From assembly GCF_027942295.1 (NCBI RefSeq), contig NZ_CP101416.1:744001-808000 (forward strand): DNA of 64,000 bases, read 5' to 3'. The position numbers and the translations under genes were made by a program. How positions within the stretch are numbered: position 1 is the stretch's first letter; each line of letters opens with the position of its first letter. This document shows, piece by piece, positions 18,416-63,489 of this stretch. Below the pieces are notes generated by a model, which worked only from the letters and a program-made list of their open reading frames with translations, ran no database searches and had not been told where the DNA came from. Source of the stretch: Pseudanabaena sp. Chao 1811. GTDB taxonomy: Bacteria > Cyanobacteriota > Cyanobacteriia > Pseudanabaenales > Pseudanabaenaceae.

Positions 18416-18490
18416 CAACGTTTCCCGTTTATTTATGAAGAATTTTTGCTCTCCTAACTGTAGCAGAAAACATCCAATCTATACGATTAC

Positions 18491-18541
18491 CACAATAAAA
18501 AGCGAAGGTAGCACAATGTGCTACCTTCGCTTTTTATTGTG
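18491..18541 (-). terminator. Perfect 24-bp palindrome, terminator of the LysM/M23 gene
   Basis: Arms 18491-18514 and 18518-18541 pair without mismatch around the loop AAT. On the minus strand it lies 5 bp after the M23 peptidase stop, and its distal arm begins with a run of A/T pairs. Confidence 0.75.
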
Positions 18542-18545
18542 GGAT

Positions 18546-31898: not shown

Positions 31899-31905
31899 AT
31901 CAAAA

Positions 31906-31960
31906 CCGAATATTTTTGTTAAAAGTGTTGCAATGCAACACTTTTAACAAAAATATTCGG
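31906..31960. terminator. Perfect 26-bp palindrome
   Basis: Arms 31906-31931 and 31935-31960 pair without mismatch around the loop AAT. It lies 8 bp after the phasin-like stop and 23 bp before rsmI. Confidence 0.75.
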
Positions 31961-31983
31961 TTGCTATATATGGATATTAATTA

Positions 31984-39198: not shown

Positions 39199-39783
39199 AT
39201 GCTAACACTAAAAAAAAAATATTCGCTTACGGAATACTTTGAGCGTGAAATTCTTGCCGAAACTAGAAATGAATATATTGACGGAGAAATTGTTGAAATG
39301 ACTGGTGGTACACCAACCCATAACACCCTTGTTGTCAACTTATTATCTATCCTGCATATATCTTTGCCTGACCCATATAGGGTCTTCGTAACCGATCAGC
39401 GTCTCTGGATTCCTGCTCAACGTATTGCGACATACCCTGATGTGATGGTCATTGCTGAACCTTTTTCATATCAAGAAGGTCGCAAGGATACTTTAGTTAA
39501 CCCTGTTTTGATTGCCGAAGTTTTATCTCCATCAACAGCAAACTATGATCGTAGTGGTAAATTTGCCGCTTTTCGGACTATTCCTAGTTTCCAAGAATAT
39601 TTGCTGATTGCTCAAGATCGCATCTATGTAGAGCATTTTTATAAAGAAGGCGATCGCTGGATCTTTGCAGCCTATGAGAGGGATGAGACAATTTCTCTGC
39701 AATCCGTTGATTTAGCGATCGCCACAACTGCCATATATAAGCGTGTTAACTTTGAACTAGAAGCATCAGCATCGGAGCAGTAA
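39199..39783 (+). CDS. Uma2 family putative endonuclease (DUF820)
   Basis: 194 residues of the Uma2/DUF820 family, a PD-(D/E)XK-fold group abundant in cyanobacteria. Key elements are YIDGEIVEMTGGTPTHN, the catalytic-type TYPDVMVI (Asp) and VLIAEVLSPSTANYDR (Glu), then LIAQDRIYVEHF. Nuclease activity is inferred from fold only. Two bases separate it from the DUF29 gene, so the two are co-transcribed. Confidence 0.88.
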   Translation: MLTLKKKYSLTEYFEREILAETRNEYIDGEIVEMTGGTPTHNTLVVNLLSILHISLPDPYRVFVTDQRLWIPAQRIATYPDVMVIAEPFSYQEGRKDTLVNPVLIAEVLSPSTANYDRSGKFAAFRTIPSFQEYLLIAQDRIYVEHFYKEGDRWIFAAYERDETISLQSVDLAIATTAIYKRVNFELEASASEQ

Positions 39784-40325: not shown

Positions 40326-40355
40326 CTACTCAATGTACTAAGGGTTCTGTGATTT

Positions 40356-40412
40356 AATAAACCAAAATTTTTATGGCGCGGCGAAGCCGCGCCATAAAAA
40401 TTTTGGTTTATT
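40356..40412 (-). terminator. Perfect 27-bp palindrome at the gshA stop
   Basis: Arms 40356-40382 and 40386-40412 with loop GAA, no mismatch. It overlaps the last bases of the minus-strand gshA gene and faces the repeat at 40246-40325 across 30 bp. Confidence 0.75.
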
Positions 40413-41556
40413 AGATTAGTAATAGAGCTTCTGCTAGTTCCTTATCCATTTTTTCGGCACTGGCGATCGCATCGGTCATGATTTGGCGAGGACTAAGCCC
40501 GTTATGATAAGCCGCTAGCCAACGTTGTGCTTCATTGCCCTGTTCGAGGATTTTCTTCAAGGGCGAGAGAAAACACCACACACCCGAATCCTTAGCTCGC
40601 GATCGCAATTCTTCGTAAAGATTAGATACCCACTCCCGCGCCGTAATCTCTTCACCTGTCTGCCAATGGGTTAACACAGCATCAAGACTATTAGTAGCTG
40701 CGGCGATTTCATTGCGATCGGCAATTTCCGCAAGTTCACTCGGCGTAAATTTACTAGAATTAGGCGCAAGTGGATCGAGAGATGAGCCAATTCCTGCTTC
40801 CAGAAATTGAGTGAGGCGCATTTCTAAAAGTGAAGTGATTGCTAATAGAGCCACAGGATCTATAACAAGATCGGAAATTCGTAATTCTAAGCGATTGAGG
40901 TTATAGGGACGATTGTCGCCATTGGGACGTACCGATGACCAGAGATGGCGCACATTTTGCATCGTTCCCAATTGCAATTGCTGCTCTGTCCATTCCACAA
41001 AATGATGATGATCGCGGAATAGAGGAACTTCCTTTGGTGTTTTAGGAAACATTTGCCAACGGGAAGAATGGAAACCAGTTGCCTTGCCATTGAGAAAAGG
41101 AGAAGCGGCACTGAGAGCTAGATAGAGAGGTGCTTCAAGACGAATGAGGCGACAGGCGGCAATTAATAGCTCTAAATCAGGAATCCCAACATTAATATGA
41201 ATACTAGCAGTGACTACATCCGTACCATAGGTCTGCTCAATATAGGTGTGATAGGGATTATTAGGATCGGAGCGATAGAAATGATCGGTTCCCCCCAGAG
41301 CCAGCGTACTCCCCGGCATCAAGGTGTAATCGCCCAGCGATCGCAAATAGCTGCGTAGTTTTTGGCGTGGTTCCACCAAAGCCATCAGTAATGGCTCATA
41401 TTTGAGAAAAGGTGGAGTGATGTATTCGACATTGCGGCTATCGGGTTCGCGCACAAACCCATGCAGATTTGCCACGATGCGATCGCTAAAGCCAATCACA
41501 TCCCCCGTTGGTGTAGAGGTATATATTTCTACTTCAAAGCCTTTAGATAAAAGCAC
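40411..41556 (-). CDS. gshA: Glutamate-cysteine ligase, cyanobacterial type
   Basis: First step of glutathione synthesis: ATP-dependent joining of glutamate and cysteine. I placed the start at the GTG at 41556 (about 381 residues), because AAAGGA lies eight bases upstream and the product then begins MLLSKGFEVEIYTSTP, as I recall homologues do. A longer frame from a TTG at 41604 has no ribosome binding site. Family features are NVEYITPPFLKYEP, LMPGSTLALGG, ASIHINVGI, and NRLELRISDLV. GshB is not in the window. Confidence 0.9.
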   Translation of the reverse strand: MLLSKGFEVEIYTSTPTGDVIGFSDRIVANLHGFVREPDSRNVEYITPPFLKYEPLLMALVEPRQKLRSYLRSLGDYTLMPGSTLALGGTDHFYRSDPNNPYHTYIEQTYGTDVVTASIHINVGIPDLELLIAACRLIRLEAPLYLALSAASPFLNGKATGFHSSRWQMFPKTPKEVPLFRDHHHFVEWTEQQLQLGTMQNVRHLWSSVRPNGDNRPYNLNRLELRISDLVIDPVALLAITSLLEMRLTQFLEAGIGSSLDPLAPNSSKFTPSELAEIADRNEIAAATNSLDAVLTHWQTGEEITAREWVSNLYEELRSRAKDSGVWCFLSPLKKILEQGNEAQRWLAAYHNGLSPRQIMTDAIASAEKMDKELAEALLLI

Positions 41557-48770: not shown

Positions 48771-49223
48771 ATGACCGATAGCAATGATAGTTTAATCGTC
48801 AAGCCCAAAAAATCTGGACTAGCGCCATTGATTCTCACTTTGGTGGAATTGTTGCGCCAGCTAATGGAAGCGCAGGTAATTCGGCGGATGGATGCTGAGA
48901 AATTAACTGAGTCGGAAATTGAGAGAGCCGCAGATAGCTTACAAGCTCTAGAGAAACAGATCTTCAATCTTTGTGAAGTTTTAGAAATTGATCCCGAAGA
49001 CCTCAATCTCGATCTCGGTGAATTTGGGAAGCTGCTGCCTAGACGCGGAGCCTATTATCCAGATCAGTCCTCTAGTGAGTCATCGATTTTGGAATTACTC
49101 GATCGCTTGATTAGTACAGGAATCGTCCTCGAAGGTGATGTGCAGATTGGACTCGCCGACATTAACCTAATCGATCTCAAATTAAAATTATTACTAACTT
49201 CAGGCGATAAATCCGCTTCTTAA
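48771..49223 (+). CDS. gvpK: Gas vesicle protein GvpK
   Basis: A 150-residue GvpK with the cyanobacterial layout. The N-terminal GvpK domain (about 15-95) has LAPLILTLVELLRQLMEAQV, IRRMDAEKL and LNLDLGEFGKLLP. The C-terminal GvpA/GvpJ-like segment is LELLDRLISTGIVLEGDV followed by IGLADINLIDLKLKLLLTS. GvpK is an accessory protein needed for gas vesicle assembly. No other gvp gene is present in the window. It is convergent with larC, with no gap. Confidence 0.93.
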   Translation: MTDSNDSLIVKPKKSGLAPLILTLVELLRQLMEAQVIRRMDAEKLTESEIERAADSLQALEKQIFNLCEVLEIDPEDLNLDLGEFGKLLPRRGAYYPDQSSSESSILELLDRLISTGIVLEGDVQIGLADINLIDLKLKLLLTSGDKSAS

Positions 49224-49724
49224 CTAGAAATTGGCAAAGCTAATCTCTAGCAAACTCTCTCCTGCAAGCTTTACAGCTTCTTGAATGCGAGTTAATGGCA
49301 CATGATGCGATCGCGCTAGCTTCGCACAGTCCTCATATTCTGGTTGAATTGTCCAGAAGCCGTCCCGCCATGCCATCTTCACTCGCGCCTTGCCATATTC
49401 CGTTACGACTTCACGAATCTCACGATGAAGGATTTTGCGCTCTTGCCAACGATAGCGAATACCGAGAGTACTAGTTTCCCGAAAGAGAATTTGCTCACAA
49501 ATAGACTGGCGATCGCAATGACAAATAACAGTAATGAGAGTCCCGTTGCGGGATTTTTTCATGCCCACTGCTTGGGTATACACATCCAGAGCACCGTTTT
49601 GCAATAACTGCTCCATCGTGTAGGCGATCAATTGAGCAGACATATCATCAACTTGAGTTTCAAGAATGACAATGGTTTCCGTAATGCTTGCGACTGTTTG
49701 CTGTTTGTCAATTTCTTGAATCAA
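49224..49724 (-). CDS. larC: Nickel-pincer cofactor protein LarC, C-terminal part (LarC2)
   Basis: The C-terminal half of LarC, the CTP-dependent enzyme that inserts nickel into the pincer cofactor. If read alone it would start at TTG 49724 (167 codons, no ribosome binding site). Typical motifs are VILETQVDDMSAQ, NGALDVYTQAVGMKKSRNGT and MAWRDGFWTIQPEYEDC. The same frame is open upstream to the A9 run in LarC1, so it is most likely translated as the end of a LarC1-LarC2 fusion after a -1 shift (see 49745-49753). Confidence 0.88.
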   Translation of the reverse strand: MIQEIDKQQTVASITETIVILETQVDDMSAQLIAYTMEQLLQNGALDVYTQAVGMKKSRNGTLITVICHCDRQSICEQILFRETSTLGIRYRWQERKILHREIREVVTEYGKARVKMAWRDGFWTIQPEYEDCAKLARSHHVPLTRIQEAVKLAGESLLEISFANF

Positions 49725-49738
49725 AGCAGCATTAATCT

Positions 49739-50632
49739 CTAATCTTTTTTTTTATCTTTGGACTTACTCTTCCCAACCCACAACCGTAAGGCATTAGGAA
49801 TTTCTAAATCCTGAGAACCTGCCCCTAAACCTACTTTTTTGATTTTCATTAAGGGAACTTCGCCAAACTTTTCACTGAGGGTGACAGCGATCGCCGCTCC
49901 TGTGGGGGTGACTAATTCCTTGCGAATGCCATTATCAAAGGTAGTTACACCATGTAGTTCCCATAATTTCAAGGTGGCGGGGGCAGGCACGGGCATCTTG
50001 CCATGATCGCAATTGACATAGCCCCCACCCGCAGGCAAAGCCGAGCAATAGATTTTTTCGACTTCTAACCAAACAAAGCCTGCACAGGTACAGACAATAT
50101 CGACGATCGCATCGATCGCTCCTACTTCATGAAAATGGACTGCTTCGGGGGCAATCCCATGCACGGCTCCCTCGGCGATCGCTAGTTCTTTAAATATCGC
50201 TAAACTCCATTTCTCAACCTGCGCTGGTAATTTAGCATGACGAATAATATTCTCAATATCGGGTAAATGCCGATGCTCTTTATGGGTATGCTTTTCATGA
50301 TGATCATGACGATGGGAATGTTCTCCATGAGTGTGCGCGTCATGATCGTGAGAGTGACTATGGGTATGATCATGGCTATGCTCATGGGAATCAGTGGCGG
50401 CTACGGTTGGTGGCTCATTACCGACATAATTCAATAACTCCACATGGAGCTTTGTTGCTTGAATGCCACCACGATAAACAGATTCTGTCCATAGCTTCAC
50501 TTCGCGATCAAGTCCCAATTTATGAACAATATCTTGCAGATATTCTAGTGGGACACCTGCGTTCACTAGCGCCCCCAGACACATATCACCTGCGATACCT
50601 GTCGGGCAATCTAAATATGCAATGGTTCCCAT
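49739..50632 (-). CDS. larC: Nickel-pincer cofactor protein LarC, N-terminal part (LarC1)
   Basis: 297 residues: AYLDCPTGIAGDMCLGALVN at the start, a His-rich nickel-binding insertion (about 80-125, dozens of His/Asp), AVHFHEVGAIDAIVDIV, and LVTPTGAAIAVTL. It ends KDKKKD at a stop directly after nine A. In Lactobacillus plantarum LarC is known to be made from larC1 and larC2 by ribosomal frameshifting, and the same arrangement is seen here. LarB and LarE are not in the window. The nickel enzyme served is unknown. Confidence 0.92.
   Translation of the reverse strand: MGTIAYLDCPTGIAGDMCLGALVNAGVPLEYLQDIVHKLGLDREVKLWTESVYRGGIQATKLHVELLNYVGNEPPTVAATDSHEHSHDHTHSHSHDHDAHTHGEHSHRHDHHEKHTHKEHRHLPDIENIIRHAKLPAQVEKWSLAIFKELAIAEGAVHGIAPEAVHFHEVGAIDAIVDIVCTCAGFVWLEVEKIYCSALPAGGGYVNCDHGKMPVPAPATLKLWELHGVTTFDNGIRKELVTPTGAAIAVTLSEKFGEVPLMKIKKVGLGAGSQDLEIPNALRLWVGKSKSKDKKKD
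49745..49753 (-). promoter_or_regulatory. A9 slippery site for -1 frameshifting within larC
   Basis: On the minus strand the LarC1 frame reads GAT AAA AAA AAA GAT TAG. A -1 slip on A AAA AAA gives AAA AGA TTA GAG ATT, which runs in frame into LarC2 without a stop. The zero-frame stop comes one codon after the run. Confidence 0.7.
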
Positions 50633-50735
50633 ACTTAATCACTACAGAAATTATAAAACTACTCTGGTCTGCATCCTAGCATTGATATTGATTTTCATGG
50701 CATCCAAGATCTAGAAAGTGACTCTGGCATATCTT

Positions 50736-51833
50736 CTATGGTAGCGAGAATCCAATTACTCCTTGAAGATTAGCACCTTCCCAAATAGTACTTTCCACTA
50801 ACGCATCTGTTAAATTAGCATTAGCAAGATTTGCCTTTGAGAGATTTGTTCCCATAAAGTTAGCACCACTTAAATCTGCACCGCCCAAGTATGAATTTTG
50901 CAATTCAGCCACAGCAAAATTTGCCTGTTTGAGAATTGCCATACTTAAATCAACTTCCTTCATTTCTGTATGACGAAATTTAGTTTCGATGCAGATTGCC
51001 TGTGTCAAGATTGCTCTGTACAGGTAGGCGCGACTAAAATCAGCATGACTAAGATTTGCCTTAGTTAAATTCGCCATACTCAAAAAAGCATCACCCAAAA
51101 AAGCGTCACATAGTTCAGCACCAAATAGTTGCGCTCCACTTAAGATTGCACCTCCCAGATTAGCTTTATTGAGAATTGCCTTATTTAAGATTGCCTCGCT
51201 AAAATTTGCCATCAGGCAACCAGCCATGCTGACATCTGCAAAATCAAGTGATGCACCACATAAATTTGCACGAGTTAGCAAGGTTCCCCGTAGTTTGGCA
51301 CGACTCAGCTTGGCATGACTTAGATTCACATTGCTCAAGTTTGCGCCACTAAAATCAGCATTTTGGAGATCTGCTCCACTGAGGTTTGCACTATGGAGAT
51401 TAATCTTTTTGAAACTCTCTCCACTTAGATTTACACCCCGTAAATCTGTATCACTGAGATTTGCGGAACCAAGATTGATACCCCTAAGCTCTAGCGATCG
51501 CAAGTCAGTACCAGCCAAATTAACATCTTGGACATTCGCTTGACTAATATTAGCCTGAGCCAAGATTGCACCACGCAAATCAGATCCCTTTAAGTTGGCA
51601 TTAGAAAACACGGCTTCGCTTAAATTTGCACCGACTAAATTTGCGTAGCTTAAGTCCGTCCTACTAAAATTAGCCTTGCTGAGGTTGACTTGACTCAAAT
51701 TTGCACCACTAAGCTTTAGCCCAGACAAATCTACTTTTGTGAGATCGATCGCCTCAGGTTGAGCTTTTTCGCGCCAAGCATTCCAATGCTCAGCACCATC
51801 TTTAATATGTCGAACAATTTTTAGATCAGCCAA
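50736..51833 (-). CDS. Pentapeptide-repeat protein
   Basis: 365 residues, of which about 35-360 are tandem A(D/N)LxX pentapeptides (SGANLSQVNLSKANFSRTDL-type), expected to fold as a right-handed quadrilateral beta helix with about 16 coils. There is no signal peptide or membrane segment. Residues 1-30 (HIKDGAEHWNAWREKAQPEA) form a short helical cap often seen before such repeats. The TTG start has no clear ribosome binding site. Such proteins are numerous in cyanobacteria and mostly of unknown function. Confidence 0.88.
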   Translation of the reverse strand: MADLKIVRHIKDGAEHWNAWREKAQPEAIDLTKVDLSGLKLSGANLSQVNLSKANFSRTDLSYANLVGANLSEAVFSNANLKGSDLRGAILAQANISQANVQDVNLAGTDLRSLELRGINLGSANLSDTDLRGVNLSGESFKKINLHSANLSGADLQNADFSGANLSNVNLSHAKLSRAKLRGTLLTRANLCGASLDFADVSMAGCLMANFSEAILNKAILNKANLGGAILSGAQLFGAELCDAFLGDAFLSMANLTKANLSHADFSRAYLYRAILTQAICIETKFRHTEMKEVDLSMAILKQANFAVAELQNSYLGGADLSGANFMGTNLSKANLANANLTDALVESTIWEGANLQGVIGFSLP

Positions 51834-63409: not shown

Positions 63410-63489
63410 ACAGATAAATTTTGAAAAAGCTTGCTTCGCAAGCTTTTTCAAAATTTATCTGGGTTTCGAGAAAGCGCAAAGTACTGTAA
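63410..63489 (-). repeat. Head-plus-palindrome repeat (inverted copy)
   Basis: Perfect 23-bp stem (63412-63434, 63438-63460; loop TTC), followed by the head in inverse orientation, reading on the minus strand TACAGTACTTTGCGCTTTCT then CGAAACCCAGA. It lies between the two rhomboid genes. Confidence 0.75.

Follow-up and report, generated by a model that had tools for sequence, protein, structure and literature searches.

The larC locus

The window, a stretch of 64,000 nucleotides from Pseudanabaena sp. Chao 1811, carries on its minus strand a larC gene divided between two reading frames (Table 1). The 3' end of larC1 reads AAA GAT AAA AAA AAA GAT TAG AGA TTA, and larC1 ends at the TAG one codon after the three AAA codons, as the original prediction had stated. 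The larC2 frame lies at -1 and is free of stop codons from within the A9 run down to position 49224. Conceptual re-reading of one A in the -1 direction gave a LarC protein of 469 aa with the junction ...KDKKK-RLEINAAL..., in agreement with the predicted slip on A_AAA_AAA into a frame that is open into LarC2. Both parts of the joined protein exceeded their NCBIfam cut-offs: the larC1 product scored 215.6 bits against nickel_LarC1 (cut-off 90), and the larC2 product scored 147 bits against nickel_LarC2 (cut-off 50). The two products cover positions 1-242 and 235-374 of PF01969, respectively, and the larC2 product matches the solved chain 6bwo with an E value of 1.1e-26. A profile search of the window's genome, a single contig of 4.73 Mb, detected no second PF01969 match. 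No Rfam match was obtained within positions 49000-50800 of the window at E values up to 1.

Because the TAA of the -1 frame abuts the A9 run, slippage before the run would hit a stop, and a useful slip would be confined to the run itself. Nine consecutive A's matched three times in the window, two of the matches lying within one A10 run, against an expectation of 4.96 from shuffled sequences. The run alone is therefore not rare, and the excess over chance lies in its phase and its conservation.

Two other features were observed. An A10 run is present on the plus strand at 39210-39219, close to the 5' end of an open ORF at 39199-39783, and could serve as a control for polymerase slippage within this genome. 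Convergent with larC is a plus-strand ORF at 48771-49223 with weak GvpA/GvpM-like gas-vesicle matches that fall below the cut-off.

Table 1. Features of the larC locus and examples of long palindromes in the window
Feature	Position	Strand	Remarks
larC1, zero-frame part of larC	49739-50632	minus	297 aa; His-rich stretch; TAG stop at 49739-49741
A9 run, in-frame AAA AAA AAA	49745-49753	minus	read from sequence
Slippery heptamer A_AAA_AAA within the A9 run	49745-49751	minus	
TAA of the -1 frame	49752-49754	minus	formed by the T preceding the run and its two leading A's
larC2, post-slip part of larC	49224-49745	minus	first codon AGA at 49745-49743; stop codon at 49226-49224
Weak predicted fold 3' of the A9 run	49692-49737	minus	z -0.88, no better than shuffles; not a clear stimulator
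Example palindrome	18488-18544		
Example palindrome	31903-31963		
Example palindrome	40352-40416		
Example palindrome	63410-63462		

Phase and run length across the family

The cyanobacterial family to which the window belongs was sampled with 38 genomes, one per species; a search at the level of the order returned the same 38. A larC gene was found in 37 of these genomes, split in 34 and unbroken in 3, and G008 gave no larC match in this search. In 33 of the 34 split loci larC2 is in the -1 frame, with an A_AAA_AAA or A_AAA_AAG heptamer within the overlap. Comparison of run lengths among related genomes, which had been proposed as a check, gave A9 at 27 of the 33 loci, A10 at 4 and A6G at 2. 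Between the run and the LarC2 core the -1 frame contains no stop codon at any of the 33 loci, frame 0 contains at least one at all 33, and frame +1 contains at least one at 29. A stop of the -1 frame directly abuts the run at 12 of the loci, including that of the window. The linker, measured from core to core, has 16 distinct lengths over the 33 loci and a single phase throughout, indicating that linker indels were retained only where the -1 relation was retained.

The one split locus that departs from this pattern belongs to G035 (83% complete, 320 contigs) and has an A8 run and phase +1. Its sister genome, G034, has A9 and -1, which makes an indel or an assembly error in G035 likely. Two of the 33 loci have further irregularities. 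In G018 (L038) an upstream stop interrupts frame 0 of larC1, giving 237 aa against about 280, and PF01969 is found in three matches. In G037 (L006) the LarC2 frame extends over no more than 29 codons of the core, close to the end of a contig, and a fuller larC2 match lies on another contig. Separately, L039 (G009:C17:475500-485800) has a second copy of larC2 about 7 kb from larC, with different upstream sequence.

The three unbroken larC genes belong to one genus of the family (L003-L005) and have no A-run. The original prediction had named relatives of this kind as evidence against it, and they are indeed present; they indicate gain or loss in a lineage rather than an artefact.

Possible ribosomal or transcriptional slippage

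Judged from the sequences, larC of the family is probably one gene in which a programmed -1 frameshift restores LarC. Ribosomes staying in frame 0 would stop shortly after the A-run and produce LarC1. Ribosomes that move back by one base on the heptamer, which is A_AAA_AAG in one genus and A_AAA_AAA in the others, would continue into LarC2 and produce full-length LarC, the putative enzyme of nickel insertion in the synthesis of the nickel-pincer cofactor. The proportion of LarC1 to LarC would then depend on the frameshift. We infer that slippage takes place at some rate, mostly on the ribosome, and that the cell makes use of both products.

The same two frames might instead be fused in the mRNA by an RNA polymerase that stutters on A9 or A10 and adds one A in some transcripts. 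A run of nine or ten A's is present at 31 of the 33 -1 loci, that of the window among them, and an extract of PMC3711429 cites polymerase slippage on nine A's in dnaX of Thermus thermophilus and puts the usual range for transcriptional slippage at more than 7 A's. The two genomes of genus g8 (L006 and L007) fall outside this range: there CCA AAA AAG is followed by a stop, and only six A's and a G occupy the same place in the same phase. The suggestion of polymerase slippage in the original prediction is thus compatible with the A9 and A10 sites but hardly explains the two A6G genomes, and we regard it as unlikely. Ribosomal slippage is favoured over polymerase slippage, the best evidence being that genus g8 has only A6G, the dnaX heptamer. 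The A9 and A10 sites would suit ribosome and polymerase alike, and a mixed origin is possible.

In E. coli dnaX the shifted product is the shorter one, whereas in larC it is the longer one. The A_AAA_AAG heptamer of genus g8 is identical to that given for E. coli dnaX in an extract of PMC5009743. A published comparison of heptamers in E. coli argues against a high efficiency of A_AAA_AAA alone. Lysine codons elsewhere in these genes number 453 AAA and 213 AAG, raw counts from which codon usage does not appear to force all-A runs.

Selection on the two parts and starts for LarC2

The median dN/dS relative to the window over 23 congener pairs was 0.100 for LarC1 and 0.082 for LarC2, at high synonymous distances (median 1.1-1.3) and with one LarC2 pair saturated. 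Loci L006 and L038 were excluded from the selection analysis, and the other genera were also excluded from the dN/dS calculation. Both LarC1 and LarC2 are under purifying selection, and both halves look translated. At the level of sequence, the split architecture, its conservation and selection on both parts are demonstrated.

Translation of LarC2 as a second protein by re-initiation, with LarC working as a complex of LarC1 and LarC2, would be in keeping with the solution of the LarC2 domain alone as 6bwo and with a possible start (ATG, GTG or TTG) in 23 of 38 split loci, of which 34 are from the family and 4 are others. In the window the closest candidate is a TTG that lies 17 nt beyond the first nucleotide of the larC1 stop, and larC2 has, judging by eye, no ribosome binding site of its own, as had been noted originally. 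However, between 25 nt before the LarC1 stop and the core, 15 of the 38 loci have no ATG, GTG or TTG and 24 have no ATG or GTG, so that LarC2 lacks a recognizable independent start in part of the relatives. Moreover, re-initiation needs no open -1 overlap at an A-heptamer, yet such an overlap is retained in all but one of the split family loci. Two separate proteins are accordingly a highly improbable arrangement.

Sequencing or assembly error, gene decay or on/off phase variation at the run could be suspected from the error-prone nature of A-runs, the A8 and wrong phase of G035 and the further damage in G018 and G037, but these explanations are ruled out, to within a negligible probability, by an identical phase in 33 of 34 genomes taken one per species, where free indels would yield three phases, by the purifying selection on both parts, and by the single-contig assemblies G000 (the window's genome) and G014; sequencing error in particular is a very unlikely source of the split.

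Folds and palindromes downstream of the run

Under the preferred reading of a programmed -1 frameshift, sequences downstream of the run could affect slippage. A stimulatory structure is a usual but not an indispensable part of such genes; stimulators usually begin 5-8 nt downstream, according to an extract of PMC4066793. The clade of the window (L001, L015, L018, L028 and L031) has no strong fold after the run. Fold z-scores below -5 were found at the junction in 12 of 36 loci. Among the 25 loci of the genus the junction fold was the strongest of the gene in 13, the second strongest in 2 and neither in 10, and it was among the top two in none of the 9 split loci of other genera.

Compensatory changes in the hairpin arms were counted in two sets of loci, and were clear in the first but weak in the second. 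In six hand-picked loci (L016, L020-L022, L034 and L035) 8 of 17 pairs had changed on both sides, a value reached by 9 of 500 shuffles, and 16 two-sided cells were found against 6.5 expected, reached by none of 500 shuffles. In a second set of six other loci 3 of 24 pairs had changed on both sides (40 of 500 shuffles reach this), with 5 two-sided cells against 1.5 expected (0 of 500); further pair types in this second set were not above the shuffles (429 of 500).

The hairpin of G020 and G016 includes a palindrome that is dispersed across the genus. This palindrome, of about 33 bp with the core GGGCGGCGC...GCGCCGCCC, gave 48 matches in the window's genome with both strands counted and 40 of 132 candidates scored, and 3-31 matches, again counting both strands, in each of nine congeners. 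Some of the dispersed copies (samples L163-L176) were seen to adjoin AGTCCTAAA or TTTAGGACT stretches, as a small mobile repeat might. The hairpin type of the second set was found at larC only in 5 of 14 genomes and gave no match in 9 of 14, in a search that misses diverged copies: G012 has one at larC (L024) yet gave none.

The window contains 19 long near-perfect palindromes with arms of at least 14 nt, 18 of them with 3-nt loops; examples are listed in Table 1. Thirteen are clear of ORFs of at least 100 aa and six overlap such an ORF by 1-22 nt, these ORFs covering 84% of the window. Long palindromes are thus frequent between genes in the window, and correction of palindromes at the DNA level could mimic covariation. 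Together with the dispersed palindrome, these two points undercut the case for the hairpin as an evolved stimulator, and the hairpins are possible stimulators rather than demonstrated ones. Since the clade of the window and the other genera are without it, the hairpin would be dispensable for slippage. Hairpins may aid slippage where they are present, and they may be repeats that inserted into a linker tolerant of them.

The assemblies of G310, G191 and G370 (L051, L055 and L057) are interrupted in or close to the larC linker, and short tandem repeats lie by the contig end. Other cyanobacteria, too, seem to accumulate repeats in this linker.

Distribution and origin of the split

Across the class, the family included, larC was found in 376 of 388 genomes. 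Outside the family 339 of 350 genomes gave a larC match, 309 of them a single match and 30 two or more; the single matches were counted without a base-level reading, and some are partial. A renewed search of the 30 multi-match genomes and of G221 returned 30 loci, with none for G280. The junction was readable in 22 of the 30 loci: 18 are in frame, L052 and L054 have A9 and -1, L053 is -1 without a run, and L058 is +1. The other 8 were unreadable because of contig ends or linkers longer than 900 nt. Two further A9/-1 cases are thereby known from outside the family, in G299 and G237. G299 is the sole genome of its genus in the sample. Six congeners of G237 have larC in frame without a run, so the split in G237 may have arisen recently or may be erroneous.

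A programmed frameshift has reportedly been found in larC of Lactiplantibacillus plantarum, and we scanned for relatives with the 6bwo chain. This chain, which we take to be LarC2 of L. plantarum, is 92% identical to the locus of L. plantarum EGD-AQ4 (L071). The scan, which favours relatives of the query, returned 78 loci, 23 of them from Lactobacillaceae. Of these 23, 21 are split (20 in -1 and L097 in +1) and 2 are intact; of the other 55 loci, 52 are intact and 3 unreadable. The runs at the 20 Lactobacillaceae -1 loci are A10 in 18, A11 in L091 and A8 in L095. The intact gene of L090 has no run. That of L082 (Apilactobacillus micheneri) has A11 and is in frame; one extra A at the slip site would there replace frameshifting by plain reading.

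L. plantarum and its relatives resemble the cyanobacterial family in that larC is split at the LarC1/LarC2 boundary, LarC2 is in -1, and the LarC1 stop comes right after the run; the site of EGD-AQ4 reads GAA AAA AAA AAC TAA, with A10. The original expectation that the window shares its break point with L. plantarum thus held, both for the boundary and for the kind of A-run. The family differs in having mostly A9 and another linker, and in having no LarA match in 37 of its 38 genomes (some of them incomplete), though 37 of 38 have larC. A further difference is that intact LarC lies between the two groups in a quick tree.

This tree comprised 94 rows of LarC alone and has weak deep forks; left out of it were short rows, 13 loci that were incomplete, those whose junction was unreadable, and one in every two of the non-Lactobacillaceae loci from the scan. 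It gave 7 changes of state between split and intact, at least 3 of them forced by starred branches, with L026 and L058 in no group and L053 scored as split though it has no A-run. The split genes of the family and of Lactobacillaceae do not form one group, and with intact relatives between them the two splits look convergent. An independent, repeated origin of the split is likely on this evidence. The original interpretation is supported in part: a probable programmed -1 frameshift sits at the same boundary on the same kind of run, but the idea of conserved control is weakened by the intact LarC of three family genomes, by the single matches in 309 of 339 genomes outside the family, by the 52 readable non-Lactobacillaceae loci, all intact, and by the tree.

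Known frameshift systems

DUF111 is, we assume, the old name of PF01969. Antonov et al. (2013) described a cluster of DUF111 frameshift genes, of the same Pfam family as larC, with up to 39% frameshifting in E. coli reporters (PMC3711429). A larC1/larC2 pair is named for Anaerobutyricum in PMC7702098. Frameshifting of this family was therefore already published in 2013 (PMC3711429), and what is new here is the family-wide cyanobacterial case. No title or abstract on frameshifting of cyanobacterial larC was found in a literature search covering few subscription papers. The frameshift genes of Mg-chelatase chlD, as described in extracts of PMC3711429 and PMC9227772, likewise combine a metal-insertion enzyme, a poly-A slip site and a -1 shift, but belong to another protein family and concern another metal. 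In Mg-chelatase cassettes shifting correlates with the length of the poly-A run, 7, 9 and 11 A's giving 10, 40 and 63%, respectively (PMC3711429).

Function and implications

With both halves over the curated family cut-offs, the LarC encoded in the window is a putative CTP-dependent nickel insertase. The window's genome has LarB (NF033503) and a TIGR00268 protein, presumably LarE, beside larC. According to extracts of PMC11796402, the synthesis of the nickel-pincer cofactor ends with the insertion of nickel by LarC, an intact Synechocystis LarC is active in a reconstituted pathway, and many cyanobacteria have larB, larC and larE without larA. The missing LarA of the family agrees with the last of these remarks.

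The His-rich LarC1 was considered as a cause of the split. The LarC1 part contains 7-28 His residues in the 33 split family loci and 11-14 in the 3 intact family loci, and intact genes elsewhere have up to 37. The counts of split and intact genes overlap, no simple link is apparent, and the proposal was rejected. A more speculative idea, which we hold to be possible though doubtful, is that the same slip design arose several times (in Lactobacillaceae, in the cyanobacterial family and as isolated cases in G299 and G237) because nickel is inserted best when free LarC1 exceeds full-length LarC by a fixed margin. Its odds are lowered by the His-rich stretch of LarC1 not being tied to the split state.

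If the -1 frameshift is programmed as proposed, annotating larC as a gene pair or as a disrupted gene would be a mistake across a whole cyanobacterial family. The slip site occurs in 33 natural versions, with A9, A10 or A6G and with or without a hairpin, and these offer material for the question of ribosome versus polymerase. Judging from the distribution, a metal-insertion enzyme seems to have acquired the same recoding more than once. Should an excess of free LarC1 prove to be its purpose, the frameshift would act, as in chlD, as a means of setting stoichiometry in metal-insertion enzymes, in this case for a cofactor whose LarA is missing.
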